13,348 nt of DNA, taken from contig JAUWZF010000007.1 in the NCBI GenBank assembly GCA_030615475.1, forward strand, positions 1 through 13,348, given 5' to 3'. Made by a program: the position numbers and the translations under genes. Below the pieces are notes generated by a model that saw only the letters and a list, made by a program, of their open reading frames with translations, had not been told where the DNA came from and did not search any database. This DNA comes from Dehalococcoidales bacterium. Lineage in GTDB: Bacteria > Chloroflexota > Dehalococcoidia > Dehalococcoidales > RBG-16-60-22. Below, one piece after another: positions 742 through 8,342 of the stretch (the first letter of the stretch is position 1; each line of letters starts with the position of its first letter).

Positions 742-878
742 TTTAGATAGGCTCCCAGTCTATCAGTACCCGAAGTCTATCCCCCAACCCGTAAAAAAGG
801 CGTAAAGATTTAGGTGAAGCAAATAAACAGAGCATTAATATTTACGGCGGTGGGGTGTATAGTAATAAGGGGATTCCC

Positions 879-907
879 TTGACAAACGCAGCCAGCTTCG
901 CCAGAAT
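879..907 (+). promoter_or_regulatory. Putative sigma70-type promoter of the diaphorase operon
   Basis: A perfect -35 box TTGACA at 879-884 is followed, after 17 nt, by CAGAAT at 902-907 (4 of 6 matches to TATAAT). The start of transcription would fall near 914, just upstream of the AAGGA at 926-930 and the ATG at 936. This arrangement supports the downstream start codon for the first gene. It is predicted by eye only. Confidence 0.5.
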
Positions 908-935
908 TGAAGTAGGAAAACTACTAAGGACAGGT

Positions 936-1472
936 ATGACCGCATCGAAGCAGGAGACTACTACCGAGGAACGGGAGCAGATTAAGCAGGAAACCGGACA
1001 GATTTTAAACGGGTTCAGCCGAAAGAGGCCGGGCCTGATTCCCATATTGCAGAAGGTCCAGGGCAAGCTCGGCTACCTGCCGCGTGAGGCCATGACCGCA
1101 ATTGCCGAATACCTCGACATACCGGCGATAGACGTCTACGGCGTGGTCACGTTCTACAATCAATTCCGACTCAACCCACCGGGTCGGCACTCGATAAAGG
1201 TATGCCTGGGTACCGTCTGCCACATGAAAGGCGGCTACATCACCCTGGACGCCTGGAAACGAAGGCTGGGTATCAGTCCGCGTGAAACGACCGACGACCG
1301 CGAGTTCGACCTGGACACCGTGGCCTGCGTGGGCTGCTGCACCATGGCCCCGGTAACGGTGGTCGATGATAAGCCGGAAGGCGTGGTAGAACCTACCAGG
1401 GTCGACGGCATACTGCTCGCCTTCGGTTATGAGCGTGAAACGAAGGATAAAGAGAAGAGTGAAAGTGATTAA
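936..1472 (+). CDS. nuoE: NuoE-like [2Fe-2S] subunit of an NAD(P)H-dependent electron-transfer complex
   Basis: This 178-residue protein is a thioredoxin-like [2Fe-2S] ferredoxin of the NuoE/HndA/HoxE family, normally about 150-170 residues. Such subunits partner a NuoF-like flavoprotein and pass electrons near its FMN. A helical N-terminal region contains the family-typical segment from LIPILQKVQ to YLPREA (about 34-52) and the VYGVVTFYNQF motif (about 67-77). The cluster ligands are C90 and C95 (C-x4-C) and C131 and C135 in the CVGCC segment. The ATG at 936 is chosen because AAGGA lies 5 nt upstream and a promoter overlaps the longer reading; a GTG at 855 would add 27 poorly family-like residues. 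It is the first gene of a three-gene operon and overlaps the start of the next gene. The symbol is at family level; hndA or hoxE would describe it equally well. Confidence 0.9.
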   Translation: MTASKQETTTEEREQIKQETGQILNGFSRKRPGLIPILQKVQGKLGYLPREAMTAIAEYLDIPAIDVYGVVTFYNQFRLNPPGRHSIKVCLGTVCHMKGGYITLDAWKRRLGISPRETTDDREFDLDTVACVGCCTMAPVTVVDDKPEGVVEPTRVDGILLAFGYERETKDKEKSESD

Positions 1473-3366
1473 ACAGACAACGGCAGCCGCTGCCTTTCAC
1501 GAGATAAAGGAGCGCGCCGAATCTCACTGGCGGGAGCTGTGGCACGACAAGCCGGTAATCATGGTCGGCACCGCCACGTGCGGTCGCGCCGCCGGCGCTC
1601 CGGATGTCCTCCAGGCTTTCCGGGACGAGGTCAAAAAGCGTAAGCTCGACTGCCCGGTGATAGAGGTCGGCTGCATGGGGCACTGCTATGCCGAGCCAAT
1701 CGTGATTATCAGCAAGCCGGGCTACCCGCCGATATGCTACGGCTATGTCAACCCGGTTATCGCCGAGAGACTGGTCAAAGAGTTCATCCTCGGCGACAAT
1801 CCCTGTCCCGAGTTTGTCATCGGCGCGCTGGAAGCTAACGACCTTCTCCCCAGCTTTGATGACTTTCCCCGAGCACAGCATGAGCAGAAGATAATCCTGA
1901 AAAACTGCGGGCACATCGACCCCACCGAGATAGAGCATTATATTGCCGGCGGCGGCTATAACGCCCTGGCCAAGACCCTCGGAACGAAGCCGGAAGATAT
2001 CGTGGAAGAAGTAAAAAGGTCGGGGCTGAGGGGGCGGGGCGGGGCGGGCTTCCCCGTCGGCCGGAAGTGGCAGTACTGCCGGGAAGCGCCAGGTCGAACG
2101 AAATACATCATCTGCAACGCCGACGAGGGCGACCCCGGGGCTTTCATGGACCGGTCCATACTGGAGAGCGACCCCCACTCGGTAATCGAGGGCATGATTA
2201 TCGCCGGCTATGCCATCGGCGCCCGCTACGGCTATATCTATATCCGCGCCGAATACCCGCTGGCGGTGGAACGCATCCAGATTGCTCTAAAACAGGCGAA
2301 GAAATTAAATCTTCTTGGCAATCATATTCTGGGTAGTAGTTTCAATTTTGACATTATACTTTTCCATGGTTCCGGGGCCTTTGTCTGCGGCGAGGCGACC
2401 GCCCTGGCAGCCTCCATAGAGGGGAAGCCGGGAACGCCCAGACCAAAACCTCCCCGCATGACCGCGGCAGGCCTCTTCGGCAAGCCGACGGTCGTTAACA
2501 ATGTCAAGACCCTGGCCTTTATACCGCTGATAATCAGGAACGGCACCGAATGGTTTACCGGCACCGGCACGAAAAACAGCCCGGGCACGGCCGTCTTCGC
2601 CCTGGCCGGCAAGATAGTCAATACCGGACTGGTCGAGGTGCCCATGGGCACCACCCTGCGCCAGATTATATTTGAGGTCGGCAGCGGCATTCCCAAAGGC
2701 AAGAAATTCAAAGCCGTACAAATTGGCGGACCTTCCGGCGGCTGTTTACCCGAATCGGCCCTGGACTTACCCGTCGATTTCGACTCCCTGCAGGAGGTCG
2801 GCGCCATAATGGGCTCCGGCGGTATGGTAGTGCTGGACGAGGACGACTGCATGGTGGAGATAGCCCGCTACTTCCTGGAGTTCACGCAGAGGGAGTCCTG
2901 CGGCAAGTGCACCTTCTGCCGGCTGGGCACCAAGCAGATGCTGGAAGTCCTGAACGACTTTACTATGGGCAAGGGCGCGATGGAAGATATCGACAGCCTG
3001 GAACGGCTGGCCGGGGAGGTAAAGGCGGGGTCTTTGTGCGGACTGGGACAAACGGCGCCCAACCCGATACTGACCACCCTGCGCTACTTCCGTGACGAAT
3101 ACGAGGCGCATATCGAGCTGGGTAAGTGCCCGGCCCTGATGTGCCAGCACCTCATCGCCTACTATATCCTGCCCGACAAGTGCGAGCGCTCCTGCGATGC
3201 CTGCGTCGGCAGCTGCACCGTGGAGGCCATCAGCCCCAATAAAAAGAGAATCAAGGTCATCGACCAGACCCAGTGCGTCAAGTGCGGCACCTGCCTGGCC
3301 GCCTGCCCGCCTCAATACAACGCCATCGTGAAACTATCGCCGCCGAGCGAGGTGCCCGCCAAATGA
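1459..3366 (+). CDS. nuoF: NuoF-like FMN/NAD(P)H-binding flavoprotein with N- and C-terminal iron-sulfur domains
   Basis: This is the nucleotide-oxidising subunit of a diaphorase of the HndC/HydB type (about 600 residues), not the shorter complex I NuoF (about 440). In order: a thioredoxin-like [2Fe-2S] domain (C41, C72, C76, possibly C65); the NuoF core with the glycine-rich GLRGRGGAGFPVGRKW (189-204), the FMN-site EGDPGAFMDR (223-232) and CGEATAL (310-316); the [4Fe-4S] ligands C481, C484, C487 and C527; then a C-terminal double-cluster ferredoxin. The usual GEET motif reads GEAT (Ala313). The first ferredoxin cluster has C575-x3-C579-x2-C582-x3-C586 instead of Cx2Cx2Cx3C; the second (606-616) is canonical. 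A GTG start at 1459 is preferred, with AAGGA 11 nt upstream; an ATG at 1429 without a ribosome site would add ten basic residues, and a GTG at 1465 is also possible. It overlaps the gene before it, and its TGA overlaps the next ATG. Confidence 0.92.
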   Translation: MKVIKQTTAAAAFHEIKERAESHWRELWHDKPVIMVGTATCGRAAGAPDVLQAFRDEVKKRKLDCPVIEVGCMGHCYAEPIVIISKPGYPPICYGYVNPVIAERLVKEFILGDNPCPEFVIGALEANDLLPSFDDFPRAQHEQKIILKNCGHIDPTEIEHYIAGGGYNALAKTLGTKPEDIVEEVKRSGLRGRGGAGFPVGRKWQYCREAPGRTKYIICNADEGDPGAFMDRSILESDPHSVIEGMIIAGYAIGARYGYIYIRAEYPLAVERIQIALKQAKKLNLLGNHILGSSFNFDIILFHGSGAFVCGEATALAASIEGKPGTPRPKPPRMTAAGLFGKPTVVNNVKTLAFIPLIIRNGTEWFTGTGTKNSPGTAVFALAGKIVNTGLVEVPMGTTLRQIIFEVGSGIPKGKKFKAVQIGGPSGGCLPESALDLPVDFDSLQEVGAIMGSGGMVVLDEDDCMVEIARYFLEFTQRESCGKCTFCRLGTKQMLEVLNDFTMGKGAMEDIDSLERLAGEVKAGSLCGLGQTAPNPILTTLRYFRDEYEAHIELGKCPALMCQHLIAYYILPDKCERSCDACVGSCTVEAISPNKKRIKVIDQTQCVKCGTCLAACPPQYNAIVKLSPPSEVPAK

Positions 3367-4031
3367 AGACCGTATCGCTGACCATAGACGGTAAAAAGAT
3401 AACTGCCCGCCCGGGCGAAAAGCTGCTCCGGGTAGCACTGGAGAACAGTATCTATATTCCCAACCTGTGCGCCATCCGGGACAAACCGGAGCCGAGCGCC
3501 TCCTGCCGCCTGTGCTTCGTGGAAATAGAAGGGGGAGAAGAGCCGGTGACCGCCTGCACCATAGACGTGACCGAGGGTATGGTGGTGAATACAAGGGGCG
3601 AAAAGGCTTTAGCCCTGGTGCGAGCCGGTTTCGAGCTGCTGATGGCTTCTCACGCGCTGGACTGCGCCCACTGTCCGGCCAACGGCAACTGCGAGCTTCA
3701 GAAAATCGCCCGCCACCTGAAAGCCAGCCTGAAAACGAAACGGCTCCGGCTGTTGCTGAGAGAGCTGCCCATAGATGATAGCAACCCGCTTTTCACCTAT
3801 GACCCGAACAAGTGCGTTCTCTGCGGACGCTGCGTCTGGGTATGCCGCCAGAATATTAAATCAGGCGTTTTCGGATTTGCGCACCGGGGCTTTGAGAGGG
3901 TGATGACCACCTTTGCCGATGAGCCAATAGGCGCGGACAGGTGCCTGGACTGCAGCCAGTGCGTGGAAGTCTGCCCTACGGGGGCGCTTTCATTTAAAGA
4001 AGGGAAAAGACCGTCCACCGAGGACGGCTAG
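3363..4031 (+). CDS. HoxU/NuoG-N-like iron-sulfur electron-transfer subunit
   Basis: This 222-residue protein matches the N-terminal iron-sulfur part of NuoG or of [FeFe]-hydrogenase HndD, the form that stands alone as HoxU. It starts with a plant-type [2Fe-2S] ferredoxin domain (C36, C48, C51, C65). A His-Cys cluster motif follows (H97, C101, C104, C110 in HALDCAHCPANGNC). Two [4Fe-4S] motifs come last, C151/C154/C157/C161 and C194/C197/C200/C204; only the second has the usual CP ending. No H-cluster domain or molybdopterin domain follows: the protein stops about 18 residues after the last cluster. It would take electrons from the NuoF-like subunit and pass them to a partner not encoded here. 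Translation is coupled to the upstream gene by ATGA (3363-3366). Its TAG at 4029-4031 overlaps the stop of the convergent DnaC-like gene. Confidence 0.88.
   Translation: MKTVSLTIDGKKITARPGEKLLRVALENSIYIPNLCAIRDKPEPSASCRLCFVEIEGGEEPVTACTIDVTEGMVVNTRGEKALALVRAGFELLMASHALDCAHCPANGNCELQKIARHLKASLKTKRLRLLLRELPIDDSNPLFTYDPNKCVLCGRCVWVCRQNIKSGVFGFAHRGFERVMTTFADEPIGADRCLDCSQCVEVCPTGALSFKEGKRPSTEDG
3996..4027 (-). terminator. Possible terminator of the replication operon
   Basis: CCGTCC (4011-4016) and GGACGG (4022-4027) form a 6-bp GC-rich hairpin with a 5-nt loop. Read on the minus strand, just after the DnaC-like stop, it is followed by TCTTTTCCCTTCTTT, an interrupted T-rich tract. No T tract follows on the plus strand. 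The hairpin lies inside the last codons of the convergent plus-strand gene, so coding constraint is an alternative explanation. Confidence 0.35.
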
Positions 4032-5440
4032 CGGTAACGGCCCGTCTTGCCGCGGGAGGACAACCTCTTTTTATCGGCGCGTCTATCACCACGAAAATCA
4101 GGAGCCATAATATTAAAGGGTGTGCTGGTATTCCGGTCAACCAGCCGGGAACTGATGGCACTGTCGACTTCTCCCAGAATCTCGTCAAAAGAATAGCGGG
4201 TAGTGATAACGGTGGGCAGTCTCCCGTTATAGCGATAGTTGATAAGCTGATAGAGCTTCTCGCGCACCCAGGGCGTGGCCGAATGCTCGCCGAAGTCATC
4301 CAGGACGAGGAGCGGCGCCGTCTTGACGCTTTCGAAAAGCTGGTCGTAGGACACCTTGCTGTCCGGGCTGAAGGCCGAGCGCAGGTGGTCGAGGAACTCG
4401 GGCACCACCATGAAAAGGGCCGGTTTACCCGCCTCGTAACGATAGTTAACGATAGCCGCCGCCAGGTGCGTCTTGCCGCAGCCGGTCTCGCCCATGAACA
4501 CCAGCCAGCCTTCGGGGTTCTTGGCGAAATCGAAAGCCAGGCGATATGCCTCATCCATATTATCCTGCATCTCTAAAGAAAGATTATTCCGACGTTTGAA
4601 ATTGACGAAGTTCATCTTTTTCTGGAGCTCGAACTCAGGCCCCCAACTATATTCAGAAGTCGGCTGCTCTTCCTCAAGGACATAGACCTGGCACAGCCGG
4701 GGGTCGGTCAGGCGGGTGCGCAGTCGGTCGTCCAGCTTCTCCACAGGCGTAATGGTGACAATCACGGTCGGCAGCTCGCTGTTAAAACGCGAGGTCAGCA
4801 GCTGGTCGAGCTTTTCCTTAGCCCAGGCGGTGCCGGACTGAGCGCCGAGGTCGTCCAGGACAAGCAGCGGGGCGTTACGAACCTGGTCGAAGAACTCATC
4901 ATAGGGCACCTCACTGTCGGGATTGAAAGAAGAGCGGAGGTGGTCGAGGAGGTCGGGGACGGTGATATAGAGGGCCGGGTGGCCGTTCTTAATGCGTTCG
5001 TTGACGATGGCCGCCGCCAGATGTGTCTTGCCGCTGCCGCTGGGACCGCCCAGCACCAGCCAGCCCTCAGGCCCGGAGGCGAATTCCCTGGCGGCCTGAT
5101 AGGCGCGACCGAACTGCTCCTGGCTCCCCTTACTGCCGCTTCTTCCCCCCGGCTCCATATTGTCGAAGGTAAAGCGTGCCAGCGAGCCCAGGTTACTGTA
5201 CCGCTTAAGTCGGTTCTGGCGCTCGCTATCCAGTTCCTTTTTAGTACACCGGCAGGGAATAACACAGCTGTAGTCCGGCTGCCCCGAGGGTAACCGGGGA
5301 TGAACGATGCCAGCGCCCTTGCAGACAGGACAGTCAGGGGCTACCGGGGTCTCTTCATCATCGGCGGACCATGTGTCCGTACTTTCCTTTGATGAACCTG
5401 TCCGGGTCTGTTTTTTTAGAATCTCGCTGATATGTTCCAT
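4028..5440 (-). CDS. Tandem AAA+ DnaC/DnaI-like helicase loader (two ATPase modules)
   Basis: This 470-residue protein is about twice the usual DnaC/DnaI-like length (about 250). The N-terminus (MEHISEILKK) and a Cys cluster (C37, C40, C59, C63, C65) resemble the zinc-binding region of DnaI-type loaders. AAA+ module 1 has Walker A GGPSGSGKT (131-139) and Walker B LLVLDD (192-197), ending near RTRLTD. Module 2 has Walker A GETGCGKT (317-324), Walker B LLVLDDFG (377-384) and an SSRLVD arginine-finger-like segment. The modules are clearly related: both read EGWLV, then GKTHLAAAIVN, then LLVLDD. Both keep intact nucleotide-binding motifs. Neither has the T-x-N usual at the sensor 1 strand of loaders (VTITP and TTRYS instead). 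The likely role is loading DnaB, encoded in the same operon. The ATG at 5440 follows AAGG at 8 nt; a GTG lies at 5443. It overlaps the DnaD-like gene by 83 bp. Confidence 0.86.
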   Translation of the reverse strand: MEHISEILKKQTRTGSSKESTDTWSADDEETPVAPDCPVCKGAGIVHPRLPSGQPDYSCVIPCRCTKKELDSERQNRLKRYSNLGSLARFTFDNMEPGGRSGSKGSQEQFGRAYQAAREFASGPEGWLVLGGPSGSGKTHLAAAIVNERIKNGHPALYITVPDLLDHLRSSFNPDSEVPYDEFFDQVRNAPLLVLDDLGAQSGTAWAKEKLDQLLTSRFNSELPTVIVTITPVEKLDDRLRTRLTDPRLCQVYVLEEEQPTSEYSWGPEFELQKKMNFVNFKRRNNLSLEMQDNMDEAYRLAFDFAKNPEGWLVFMGETGCGKTHLAAAIVNYRYEAGKPALFMVVPEFLDHLRSAFSPDSKVSYDQLFESVKTAPLLVLDDFGEHSATPWVREKLYQLINYRYNGRLPTVITTRYSFDEILGEVDSAISSRLVDRNTSTPFNIMAPDFRGDRRADKKRLSSRGKTGRYR

Positions 5441-6071
5441 CACTCCTGCCTTCTACCGACCAGCGTTGTAAAATTGCCGAGACCACGCTCCACTTGTGCT
5501 TGCCTTGTTTGACCGCCTCTTTAATGGCATCCCGAATCCAGTTCTCTGGATATACTTTCTCGGCGTCACGGAGCTCATCGGCAATCATGGGGGTCAACAT
5601 GCCGATGTTGTCTTCATAAAGTTCAAATATGTTAGGCTGCTCCTCGGGCTCAACATAAGCCTGTTCTTTAAATGTCAGCCCCTTCAGCTTGAGCTCGCCG
5701 CTCTCGATTTTCGCCACCGTTTGACGGTCGGACGCAGTATTCAGAAAATAGACGTCCTCGGAAGTGCCGTCCTTATCCAGCGTCAAGTGGACTAACGTAC
5801 CACGCTCGGCAGCCATCTTCAGAGCGCTTCGCAGCACCTCCTCGGGCGTCCCCTCGACGCCCTGGAGACTGTCCATCAGGCCGGCATTCCCCAGCAGCTC
5901 CCCGTAGCTCACACAGCGCGGGTGTCCCTTTTTGCGGTAGAGCGCCGCCATGACATGCAGGGTCGTCTTCAGCTCGGCCATGTCGGTTATCCGGGGCAAC
6001 AGGCTGCTGAAAAAGACGTTGGGGATGGAGGTAAAATCCATCCTGGCGGGGAATCCCTGAAACTCTTTCAT
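5358..6071 (-). CDS. DnaD-domain primosome/replication initiation protein
   Basis: This 237-residue protein has two parts. An N-terminal winged-helix-like region (about 1-110) includes a DVYFLN strand. The C-terminal DnaD/DnaB-II type helical domain (about 146-208) shows the family signature NIFELYEDNIGMLTPMIADE and the following WIRDAI and W-S-V-V-S-A-I-L-Q-R-W positions. It ends with a basic stretch (FIKGKYGHMVRR) typical of primosome proteins of this family. DnaD-like proteins help recruit the helicase loader and DnaB to origins or restarting forks. Its ATG overlaps the dnaB stop (ATGA, 6068-6071) and its last 28 codons overlap the DnaC-like gene, so translation of the three genes is coupled. 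Assignment to the domain is firm; the exact primosomal role is inferred. Confidence 0.85.
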   Translation of the reverse strand: MKEFQGFPARMDFTSIPNVFFSSLLPRITDMAELKTTLHVMAALYRKKGHPRCVSYGELLGNAGLMDSLQGVEGTPEEVLRSALKMAAERGTLVHLTLDKDGTSEDVYFLNTASDRQTVAKIESGELKLKGLTFKEQAYVEPEEQPNIFELYEDNIGMLTPMIADELRDAEKVYPENWIRDAIKEAVKQGKHKWSVVSAILQRWSVEGRSDGTYQRDSKKTDPDRFIKGKYGHMVRR

Positions 6072-7444
6072 AGCAAAGTCGGCTCCACGCTGCCGAGGCT
6101 TTCAAACTTGGCCAGGTTATGGCGGAAACGCATCTTTATGCGGCCGGTCGGCCCGTTGCGGTGCTTGGCGATAATAACATCGGCTTCCTCACGGGGATAT
6201 TCACGGTCTGGGTGGGCGGCAATCCATTCCTCTTCAGTCTTGTAGTAATACTCGTCGCGATAGATAAAGAGGACGACATCCGCGTCCTGCTCGATGCTGC
6301 CGCTTTCACGGAGGTCGGAAAGCTGGGGTTCGTGGGAGGCGCGCCACTCCACGGCACGGCTGAGCTGCGATACCGCCAGTACCGGGGCATTAATTTCGCG
6401 GGCCAGTGCCTTGAGCGACCGGGAGATATAGCTGATTTCCTGCACCCGGTTCTCTCCCCTGATCCCTTCACCCTGCATCAGCTGGAGATAGTCGATAATA
6501 ACCATATCAATACCGCGCTCGTAGTTGAGGCGGAGCGCCTTGCTGCGCATTTCCGCCATGCGGAGCATCGGGGTATCGTCAATATAAATGGGAGCTTCCG
6601 ACAGGACGCCCGTAGCCTCCATGACCCGCCTTTCCTCATCCTCGGTATGCTGTCCAAACCGCACCCGCCGTGAGTTTACCCCGGACTCGCTGGACAGGAG
6701 GCGCAGCACCATGGAGTCGCGCGCCATCTCCGCGCTGAAGTGGGCGACGCACGCCCGGTGGTCGACGGCGGCGTTGCGGGCGATGTTCAGCGCCAGGCTG
6801 GTCTTCCCCATGCTGGGTCGGCCGGCGATAATGATGAGGTCGGCACGCTGGAAGCCGCCTAAAAATTCGTCCAGGCCGGGAAAACTGGAGAGCACGTAAG
6901 GTAACTCTTCGGGGCGTTCCTCGGTTGACGGCGGCGCTACCTCGAAATACTTGTCCAGCACCTGCCGGATATGGGTAAGGTCGCTGGTACCCTGCCCGCG
7001 ACGCAGCTTGAACAGTATGCTTTCGGCCTTCGCCAGGCTATCTTCGACGTCCGGGCCGGCCTCATAGCCGACGGCCGAGATACGGTCGCCGGCGCTTATC
7101 ATCTGGCGCATTACCGAAAGCCGGTAGACAATCCGGGCATAGTGCTCGATATCCAGAGAGGTGGGACAGATGGATATCAGATAGCTGAGCCGGGCGGCAC
7201 CCCCGCACGATTCAAGTCGTCCCTTCTGGGAAAGTTCCTGCGCCAGCGTCACCTGGTTGATGGCTTCGTCGCGCTCGTAAAGCGCCATGCAGGCCTCGTA
7301 AAGCCACTTGTTCTGCTCAAAATAGTAGTCCGCCGACTGAAGAAAGTCGGCAATCTGAAAAATAGCCGTGCCGTCAATCAGCAGCGAGCCGATGACCGCT
7401 TCTTCAGCATCGTTATCATTTGGCGGCAGCCTGACATCATTCAC
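6068..7444 (-). CDS. dnaB: Replicative DNA helicase DnaB
   Basis: This 458-residue protein has the full length of a replicative DnaB. The N-terminal domain begins PPNDNDAEEAVIGSLL. The RecA-like motor holds Walker A GRPSMGKTS (208-216), the catalytic glutamate region FSAEM (236-240), Walker B IIDYLQLM (316-323), AVSQLSRAVE (357-366), the DLRESGSIEQDADVV block (377-391) and the KHRNGPTG arginine-finger region (427-434). As a ring hexamer it unwinds DNA ahead of the fork. There is no intein: the P-loop region is continuous. The start is a GTG at 7444, overlapping the rplI stop by 8 bp, with AGGAG about 10 nt upstream inside rplI. The downstream neighbours are the probable loader genes, an arrangement that fits one replication operon. 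Confidence 0.96.
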   Translation of the reverse strand: MNDVRLPPNDNDAEEAVIGSLLIDGTAIFQIADFLQSADYYFEQNKWLYEACMALYERDEAINQVTLAQELSQKGRLESCGGAARLSYLISICPTSLDIEHYARIVYRLSVMRQMISAGDRISAVGYEAGPDVEDSLAKAESILFKLRRGQGTSDLTHIRQVLDKYFEVAPPSTEERPEELPYVLSSFPGLDEFLGGFQRADLIIIAGRPSMGKTSLALNIARNAAVDHRACVAHFSAEMARDSMVLRLLSSESGVNSRRVRFGQHTEDEERRVMEATGVLSEAPIYIDDTPMLRMAEMRSKALRLNYERGIDMVIIDYLQLMQGEGIRGENRVQEISYISRSLKALAREINAPVLAVSQLSRAVEWRASHEPQLSDLRESGSIEQDADVVLFIYRDEYYYKTEEEWIAAHPDREYPREEADVIIAKHRNGPTGRIKMRFRHNLAKFESLGSVEPTLL

Positions 7445-8342
7445 CCGATTCTTTCTCCTTCTCTTCCGCCTCTTCTACTTTAGTCTCAACTTCCTCTACT
7501 TTAGCCTCGGCTTCTGGTTCCTCTACCCTGGCTTTAGCTTTCTTCTTCGTTTTTGCTTTAGTCTTCTTTTCTTTCTTTTTTGCCTTTTCCGCTTTTTCCG
7601 GCTTCTCTTCCGCCACTGCTACCTTAGTCTCAACTTCATCTTCTTCAGCCCTGGCTTCCGGTTCTTCTGCCCTGGCTTCCGCTGCTTTCTTTTTCTTGGT
7701 CGATTTCGCCTTAGACTTCTTTTCCGCTTTCTTAGCCTTCTTCGGCTTCTCTTCCGCCGCTGCTACCTTAGTCTCAACTTCCTCTACTTTAGCCTTGGCT
7801 TCCGGTTCCTCTGCCTTGGCTTTAGCTTTCTTCTTCGTTTTTGTTTTAGTCTTCTTCTCTTTCTTTTCCGCCTTCTCCAGCTTCTCTTCCGCCACTTCGT
7901 CCGATATCACGTTAACCTTAATGACGGCCGTGATATCATGAGTGAACCTGACGGTCACGTCATGAGTGCCAAGCTGGCGAATCGGCTCGGCCATCTCTAT
8001 TTTCTTCTTGTCGACCTCATAGCCGGCGCTTTTACTCAGTTCCTCGGCGATATCGGCGGTGGTAACCGAACCATAGAGCCTCTCACTCTCACCGACCCTG
8101 GCCTTGAGAGTGATTTCAACTTCGCTTATCTTTTCAGCCAGCGCGGCCATCTCGGCTTCTTCAAGCTCACGCTGCTTGATTTTCTTCTTTAGCTGCGACT
8201 CAATCGCCACCGCGGCCTGCGAGTTGGCCACCACCACCAGCTTGCGGGGCAACAGGTAATTCCTGGCGTAGCCGTCGGCTACCACTCTGGTCTGGCCGAC
8301 CCTGGCAACGTTGGGGACATCCTCGATAAAAATAACCTTCAC
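7437..8342 (-). CDS. rplI: 50S ribosomal protein L9 with a long repetitive Lys/Glu/Ala tail
   Basis: Residues 1-148 are ordinary bL9. They include the N-terminal rRNA-binding domain with VGQTRVVADGYARNYLLPRKL (split about 15-35), a central helix rich in Lys and Glu, and the C-terminal domain with ESERLYGSVTTADIAE and an IRQLGTHDVTV strand. Residues 149-301 are an extra tail, highly charged and of low complexity, built from a 48-residue unit repeated about three times (EEKPEKAEKAKKKEKKTKAK, then EEPEAKAKVEEVETKV). L9 proteins are normally about 150 residues, so this one is doubled. The tail alternates Lys-rich and Glu-rich blocks and is probably helical or disordered; nucleic-acid contacts are possible. 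The GTG start at 8342 has AGGAG 6 nt upstream. The gene heads the operon with dnaB. Confidence 0.95.
   Translation of the reverse strand: MKVIFIEDVPNVARVGQTRVVADGYARNYLLPRKLVVVANSQAAVAIESQLKKKIKQRELEEAEMAALAEKISEVEITLKARVGESERLYGSVTTADIAEELSKSAGYEVDKKKIEMAEPIRQLGTHDVTVRFTHDITAVIKVNVISDEVAEEKLEKAEKKEKKTKTKTKKKAKAKAEEPEAKAKVEEVETKVAAAEEKPKKAKKAEKKSKAKSTKKKKAAEARAEEPEARAEEDEVETKVAVAEEKPEKAEKAKKKEKKTKAKTKKKAKARVEEPEAEAKVEEVETKVEEAEEKEKESGE
7472..7912 (-). repeat. 144-bp tandem repeat in the tail of rplI
   Basis: The marker TAGTCTCAAC (plus strand) occurs at 7481, 7625 and 7769, an exact 144-bp (48-codon) period, with flanking sequence similar in each copy (cttctctTCCGCC before it, AGCC..GGCTTC.GGTTC after it). 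The unit encodes alternating Lys-rich and Glu/Val-rich blocks. The copies are diverged but in register, so the tail grew by in-frame duplication. Confidence 0.85.

Follow-up and report, generated by a model that had tools for sequence, protein, structure and literature searches.

A stretch of 13,348 nucleotides from a Dehalococcoidales bacterium (assembly GCA_030615475.1, contig JAUWZF010000007.1; "the window" below is this whole stretch) encodes a helicase loader of the DnaC/DnaI type, as judged from its sequence and predicted fold, with two AAA+ modules in one chain. The tandem loader is a lineage-wide architecture and not a one-off, as two-module matches were found in 292 of 346 genomes of the class Dehalococcoidia. 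We suggest that six such chains may stack two AAA+ rings on the replicative helicase DnaB. Bacterial helicase loading is understood from loaders with one module, and here an environmental class appears to rely on a doubled one.

The tandem loader and its ATPase modules

The gene occupies 4028..5443 on the minus strand and was recognised from the open reading frame list, Pfam, NCBIfam and homologues of like length. A GTG start at 5443 gives 471 aa and an ATG at 5440 gives 470 aa; on the plus strand, frame 1 of 4028-5440 is interrupted by stops. Two stretches of the protein are matched by Pfam IstB_IS21 (6.2e-27), and likewise by each of the NCBIfam models PRK08116, DnaI and DnaC. PRK08116 is the best NCBIfam subfamily and scores above its cut-off, and a DnaC in the PDB is matched by sequence at 1.4e-16. 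Thus, Pfam, NCBIfam and the PDB all identify an AAA+ module of the DnaC/DnaI/IstB family. Because two modules are present where this kind of protein has one per chain, we regard the window protein as a variant of the DnaC/DnaI-type loader.

Module 1 (the N-module, residues about 93-261) lies at 4661..5167 and module 2 (the C-module, residues about 281-452) at 4088..4603, both on the minus strand, as delimited with Pfam and with a hidden Markov model built from the modules. Motif searches place Walker A at residues 133-140 of module 1 (GPSGSGKT, 5024..5047, minus) and at residues 318-325 of module 2 (GETGCGKT, 4469..4492, minus). Walker B corresponds to residues 193-198 and 378-383 in the 471-aa numbering. 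Both Walker motifs are complete in both modules, and the sequence also retains the Arg fingers and the residues that contact single-stranded DNA (ssDNA). Aligned with each other over 144 columns, the halves share 53% identity (E 9e-55), so their likeness is not due to chance. A preliminary description of the window had claimed two DnaC-like modules in one chain that arose by internal duplication, and both claims are borne out. The possibility that it had left for refutation, that one half is an unrelated P-loop fold, is rejected along with a chance repeat, since the same loader models match both halves.

A cluster of cysteines precedes the first module only, as had been described. It has the form C38-x2-C41...C64-x-C66 (C38-P-V-C41 ... 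C64-R-C66; 5246..5332, minus) and belongs to the N-terminal domain, where it is a presumed zinc site in what is presumed to be the DnaB-binding domain. Across 120 aligned tandem proteins three of the cysteines are invariant and the fourth is present in at least 90%. Of 284 tandem proteins, 244 show the pattern, as do all 11 other loaders printed.

The preliminary description was also right that the sensor-I Asn is missing from both modules. The position is Ile231 in module 1 (4751..4753, minus; Asn in one-module loaders of other Chloroflexota) and Arg416 in module 2 (4196..4198, minus), so the window loader lacks the complete ATPase motif set with a sensor-I Asn. In module 1 the Arg-coupler R240 and the Arg finger R244 are both in place (4712..4726, minus). 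The corresponding part of module 2 (4145..4159, minus) runs from Ala429, the lost coupler position with which position 416 covaries, to the Arg finger R433. These roles are assigned following the description of E. coli DnaC (PMC8213410), in which the Arg-coupler stands four residues before the Arg finger, engages sensor I and lies in a composite ATPase site shared with the adjacent protomer.

AlphaFold predicts two confident modules both for the window protein (predicted local distance difference test, pLDDT, 86.8; predicted template modelling score, pTM, 0.67) and for a distant Chloroflexota tandem protein, L113 (pLDDT 88.2, pTM 0.69). Single modules match structures of DnaA, DnaC, DnaI and IstB, with Z mostly 17-22. 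Of the 50 PDB rows listed for the window model, 23 span both modules (264-315 residues, 4.7-9.8 Å), and for L113 the figure is 20 of 50 (280-321 residues, 5.0-7.3 Å, one at 11.2). These rows are chains of p97, Cdc48, NSF/Sec18, Rix7, NVL, Drg1 and MSMEG_0858, all of them two-tier machines. The predicted placing of the two modules therefore resembles the stacked tiers of p97/Cdc48 and NSF/Sec18, which likewise have two AAA+ modules per chain (264-321 residues aligned); we take these models as supporting evidence only.

The loader is a resident chromosomal gene with a conserved context rather than a mobile IstB helper, consistent with its presence across the class. Genes for dnaB and a DnaD-domain protein (dnaD) adjoin it in every one of 50 related loci (L004-L053); exceptions occur among other loci (for example L085, L086, L098, L099, L101, L103 and L105). 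In three of these (L098, L099 and L105) the interval from dnaB to the loader gave no dnaD match at E 1e-3. Beside the loader of L090 the dnaD match has only 113 aa, possibly a shortened dnaD. An IS21 helper IstB was considered and rejected: the score is 130.7 bits against an equivalog cut-off of 200, and the upstream neighbours are dnaD and dnaB, not istA. We surveyed 60 hand-chosen genomes for DciA (PF05258), which was found in 0 of 45 genomes with a tandem or single loader and in 13 of 15 genomes without one; the remaining two (G399 and G411) have neither. The class appears to rely on a doubled loader, and the genomes tested lack DciA. The loader thus takes the place of DciA and is probably the only protein of this type that the cells have. 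Its family and operon suggest that it binds DnaB and loads it on ssDNA.

Among known systems, DnaC of E. coli and of Aquifex aeolicus shares the AAA+ module with its Walker motifs, Arg finger and ssDNA-contact residues and is among the best sequence and structure matches. It differs in having one module per chain, and the E. coli protein has both the sensor-I Asn and the Arg-coupler (PMC8213410) and binds DnaB in a 6:6 complex (PMC11087952). DnaI of Bacillus and Geobacillus has a zinc-binding N-terminal domain ahead of its AAA+ module (PMC3791466), and the DnaD-domain gene beside the window loader is a further likeness. Unlike the tandem protein, DnaI has one module, and its chains, which are separate, occupy DnaB as a trimer of dimers (PMC3791466). 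Closer relatives are the one-module loaders of Herpetosiphon and related Chloroflexota (L123-L131), with dnaD adjoining in 8 of 9 and dnaB in 6 of 9 and the Cys pattern in the three printed; they differ in having a single module, and all 14 one-module rows of other Chloroflexota have Asn at sensor I. Three further one-module loaders beside dnaD and dnaB (L132, L133 and L134) have about 255-390 residues of open frame ahead of the loader-like part.

Distribution, duplication and loss of the first module

In a search of 5.8 billion proteins, the 120 best relatives listed are 376-481 aa long; some carry the names Dehalococcoidales, Dehalococcoidia or Chloroflexi/Chloroflexota, with one partial protein from a metagenome-assembled genome (MAG) named Planctomycetes. 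Some match at E 1e-3 was found in 392 of 393 Dehalococcoidia genomes, not all of which represent the loader. E 1e-90 or better was taken as a two-module match, the best one-module match seen being 5.0e-83. The set of 346 genomes scored in this way comprises those of at least 90% completeness plus the window's own genome (77.65% complete). With completeness of 90% or more and contamination limited to 5%, the count of matches at this level is 235 of 285. Some of the remaining genomes have diverged tandems (family f39, e.g. L081, L087 and L088) or one-module forms.

Across a sample of the phylum, 295 of 301 genomes have some match; outside the class some are tandem, some one-module and some weak matches only. 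Tandem matches were retained from named Dehalococcoidia, Anaerolineae, Ardenticatenales and Thermoflexia MAG records (80 loci kept), and Herpetosiphon geysericola has a one-module loader. The survey of relatives that the preliminary description had called for thus finds the same fusion widespread in the Dehalococcoidia and present also in the Anaerolineae. This distribution and the homologues of like length rule out a fusion confined to one genome or an assembly artefact. The preliminary description held that it would be refuted if the second module were a routine feature of already described loaders in this lineage. The module is indeed routine in this class, and in the titles and abstract beginnings of open-access papers, a scope that leaves subscription papers mostly outside, we recognised no description of a tandem loader.

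In 50,697 phage records searched with tblastn, 675 have matches. The 30 phage places listed cover 546-819 bases, which leaves no room for a second module, so these DnaC-like loaders, which share the PRK08116 subfamily with the window protein, differ from it in having one module. A scan of viral contigs gave six loci with matches of 450-714 bases. The phage loader adjoins a DnaD-domain gene in two of the three records opened, and in the third a replisome-organizer gene lies two genes upstream. Resident dna[CI] genes are reported to originate from phages, with domestication in Chloroflexi (PMC5109545), and short phage loaders beside DnaD genes fit this origin. The strings "tandem" and "duplicat" are absent from the main text of that paper.

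For the analysis of single modules we set aside nine duplicate loci and L001-L003, and L084, which has an insert, was left out of the module tree. In a tree of 221 modules, and in one of 97 modules with support values, nearly all Dehalococcoidia first modules fall together, as do most second modules. In most Dehalococcoidia the modules thus cluster by position and not by species, and neither a recent duplication nor wholesale gene conversion between the halves is seen. The deep branches are weakly supported. Outside the main second-module clade are some deep Dehalococcoidia second modules (e.g. L082, L083, L085, L086, L092, L093, L095 and L096) and those of L099, L101 and L103 from other Chloroflexota, and many first modules from outside the Dehalococcoidia group near one-module loaders. 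We infer that the AAA+ module was duplicated early in the Chloroflexota; more than one duplication is possible. In one Chloroflexota genome two similar DnaC-like genes adjoin each other (L135:2157-4025) and encode sister modules (support 99), the kind of state in which a fusion could start. Directly downstream of the tandem loader in L083 a separate frame of 210 aa (L083:2882-3511) encodes a further DnaC-like module, perhaps a third module or a paralogue.

Sixteen Dehalococcoidia loci (L057-L072; families f10, f12, f38, f51 and f62) lack exactly module 1. Their frames of 287-334 aa fuse the N-terminal domain to the second module, and they keep their place in the operon, with dnaD upstream in 16 of 16 and dnaB in 15 of 16. 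In the 221-module tree their modules fall inside the second-module clade in several places. The one-/two-module state changes seven times on a DnaB tree of 89 rows, on which the placement of L066 has a support of only 46. L072 and L075, whose stretches contain no DnaB frame, are absent from this tree, and L073, L074, L076 and L125 are unscored. In L073 and L074 the gene is in two overlapping frames, from an assembly error or a true break, and the pieces were handled apart. Both forms occur within genus g17 (L059 single, L077 tandem) and genus g93 (L058 single, L078 tandem). Ten joints were printed: four read R/KYSGL... and four ...GDL..., where the linker that belongs to the second module comes after the end of the N-terminal domain; in L060 the join lies further on, and L065 is unclear. 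Module 1 is expendable: in several lineages the same operon carries a loader from which it is missing. The module is decayed elsewhere, with Walker A Lys replaced by Arg in L081, L087 and L088 and a broken motif in L090; the one second module that is broken is that of L092. A search with a one-module loader for more such forms returned, among the 120 matches listed, only proteins of at least 431 aa. Through direct comparison, the same-genus pairs with one and two modules (genomes G292/G377 and G072/G214) could show why loaders need ring-wise ATP hydrolysis.

Sensor I, the Arg-coupler and the arrangement on DnaB

Sensor I in 65 Dehalococcoidia second modules is Arg in 32, Cys in 11, Ser in 9 and Asn in 6, and in 67 first modules it is Ile in 14, Ser in 14, Ala in 11 and Asn in 9. 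A second set of 117 tandem proteins (P0124-P0240) was found with the Herpetosiphon loader; the three of these that are named to class are Anaerolineae. Here, sensor I is Asn in 113 of 117 first modules versus 1 of 117 second modules, the Walker A Lys is intact in both modules of all 117, and in the first module the coupler is Arg in 116 and the finger Arg in 117. Judged from these residues, the ATPase motifs of the two modules have grown apart. The residues matching the ssDNA tetrad of DnaC are largely conserved in both.

To evaluate covariation we assembled 329 proteins, set aside the 37 with one module and the 1 with three, and removed seven of the 291 two-module proteins for a short module, leaving 284 rows, which may hold one gene from two sources; 22 near-identical rows were dropped before the tree was made. 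In the second module, sensor I is Arg and the coupler is neither Arg nor Lys in 149 rows, the reverse holds in 103, both are Arg in 6 and neither in 26. The pair ranks 10 of 58,311 in a mean-field direct coupling analysis (effective number of sequences 133). On the tree of 262 rows, Pagel's dependent model is preferred over the independent one (likelihood ratio, LR, 42.8, p 1e-8), and after thinning at 55% identity the association persists in 30 sequences (p 8e-4). The 117 further proteins give 36/69/4/8 for the same four states, counts that ignore kinship. The coupler of the first module is nearly constant, with Arg in 272 of 284 rows. It shows no tie on the tree to the second-module sensor I (LR 4.5, p 0.35) or to its own sensor I (LR 5.3, p 0.26), results to be read with its near invariance in mind.

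The 16 one-module forms show the same alternation. Cys at sensor I occurs with an Arg coupler in 11 and Arg with Glu or Pro in three, so that 14 of 16 show a swap state; the exceptions are L064 (Asn/Pro) and L065 (His/Gln). If these proteins form a ring it must be homotypic, and their swap states therefore bear on contact between second modules. Since the coupler acts on the neighbouring subunit and the strongest coupling lies within module 2, second modules probably touch second modules.

These results suggest the following scheme. The resident chromosomal loader is a domesticated protein of the DnaC/DnaI type, with an early duplication of the AAA+ module. By analogy with DnaI and DnaC, the Cys-rich N-terminal domain probably holds DnaB, and six chains would sit on the DnaB hexamer with one N-terminal domain per subunit. 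In the second set, module 1 keeps sensor I and looks competent for hydrolysis, and module 2, from which sensor I has gone, may form an ATP-bound holding ring. In the lineage of the window the sensor-I Asn is gone from both modules and an Arg is present in cis at 416 instead of at the trans coupler position 429; Arg416 probably takes over the gating of ATP hydrolysis. Read as a contact between second modules, the swap favours two tiers of six over three covalent dimers. We consider six chains per hexamer, with the two modules forming two stacked rings, to be about an even bet and a better guess than a three-chain ring. To the full scheme, in which one ring gates the other, the Arg hops between coupler and sensor I with one Arg kept per second-ring site, and the first ring has repeatedly been removed to leave one- and two-ring versions within single genera, we assign a probability of roughly 0.4. 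The Arg swap yields a specific prediction of the way in which ATP firing is held back before DNA is bound.

The preliminary description had instead proposed a covalent dimer with three chains per ring, a stoichiometry that the data do not support. In this arrangement the modules would alternate N-C-N-C-N-C in one cracked ring, with each site completed by the other module. Several points weigh for it or otherwise against the two-tier scheme. In the crystal DnaI binds DnaB as a trimer of dimers (PMC3791466), which would suit a covalent dimer, and the sensor-I asymmetry of the second set (113/117 versus 1/117) would suit alternating active and inactive sites. An alternating ring also predicts covariation between the first-module sensor I and the second-module coupler, and this was found: Asn at the former covaries with the latter (Pagel LR 17.7, p 0.0014), also where the second-module sensor I is not Arg (p 7e-4). 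With thinning the p-value goes from 6e-7 (80%) through 0.003 (70%) and 0.083 (60%) to 0.25 (55%), and in the second set it is 0.13. The second-module sensor I and the first-module coupler were borderline once (p 0.058 at 70% thinning). The pTM values leave the relative placement of the modules uncertain. Dynein carries the modules of a ring within a single chain; no AAA+ protein known to be of that kind is among the listed PDB rows, which is uninformative because chains of more than 3,000 residues fell outside the comparison. Against the covalent dimer, the strongest coupling joins two second-module positions that would not meet in such a ring, and the first-module coupler lacks the corresponding tie on the tree. 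With the dimer, each DnaB would also have only half as many N-terminal domains, and one-module relatives within a genus, having lost module 1 but kept one such domain per chain, would need to restore the number. The AlphaFold models look stacked. The weaker cross-module covariation leaves three chains per ring as a competing explanation, albeit a rather unlikely one.

It is less probable still that the second modules alone form the working ring, with module 1 a tethered and degenerating side domain that acts as a regulatory or reserve binder of ATP or ssDNA and forms no ring of its own. Module 1 is the module missing from the 16 loci, its Walker A is altered in three proteins and broken in a fourth as compared with one second module, and its sensor I varies widely in the Dehalococcoidia. 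A degenerating domain is at odds with the second set, in which the motifs of module 1 are almost uniformly intact, and with the ssDNA residues conserved in both modules. Finally, the swap may reflect a cis or functional relation within one module and be silent on the ring, which would be compatible with any arrangement, including the two-tier scheme. The swapped residues 416 and 429 are only 13 apart in sequence, and an independent-pairs sign test, while in the same direction, is weak (median p 0.125; of 14 pairs, 4.2 opposite, 0.1 same and 9.7 unchanged). Both facts count against the two-tier scheme. The coupler of E. coli DnaC lies in a site with the neighbouring protomer (PMC8213410), which makes contact with its own sensor I unlikely, and we hold a purely cis relation to be unlikely overall.

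Operon and neighbouring features

The loader is the last gene of a run on the minus strand that reads rplI-dnaB-dnaD-loader. The dnaD-like gene, its upstream operon partner, lies at 5358..6071 (minus; Pfam DnaB_2 6.3e-7, NCBIfam DnaD_dom 8.4e-8), the replicative helicase gene dnaB at 6068..7444 (minus; NCBIfam DnaB, 490.7 bits) and rplI, which encodes ribosomal protein L9 and was assigned with Pfam, further upstream in this operon-like run at 7437..8342 (minus). The 3' end of dnaD contains the conserved start of the loader (MEHISEILK...), giving an overlap of about 83 bases in two frames at 5358-5440; an overlap of about 80 bases also occurs in L005 and other relatives. The L9 protein (7437-8342) has a Lys-, Glu- and Ala-rich tail (about 155 residues) that coincides with 3.0 tandem copies of a 144-base unit (75% matches). 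At the contig end, positions 4-491 hold a 135-base repeat (3.6 copies, 85% matches). On the plus strand, a cluster of the NADH-dehydrogenase/hydrogenase type (2Fe-2S thioredoxin-like protein, 51K flavoprotein and iron-sulphur subunit; 855-4031) converges on the loader gene.

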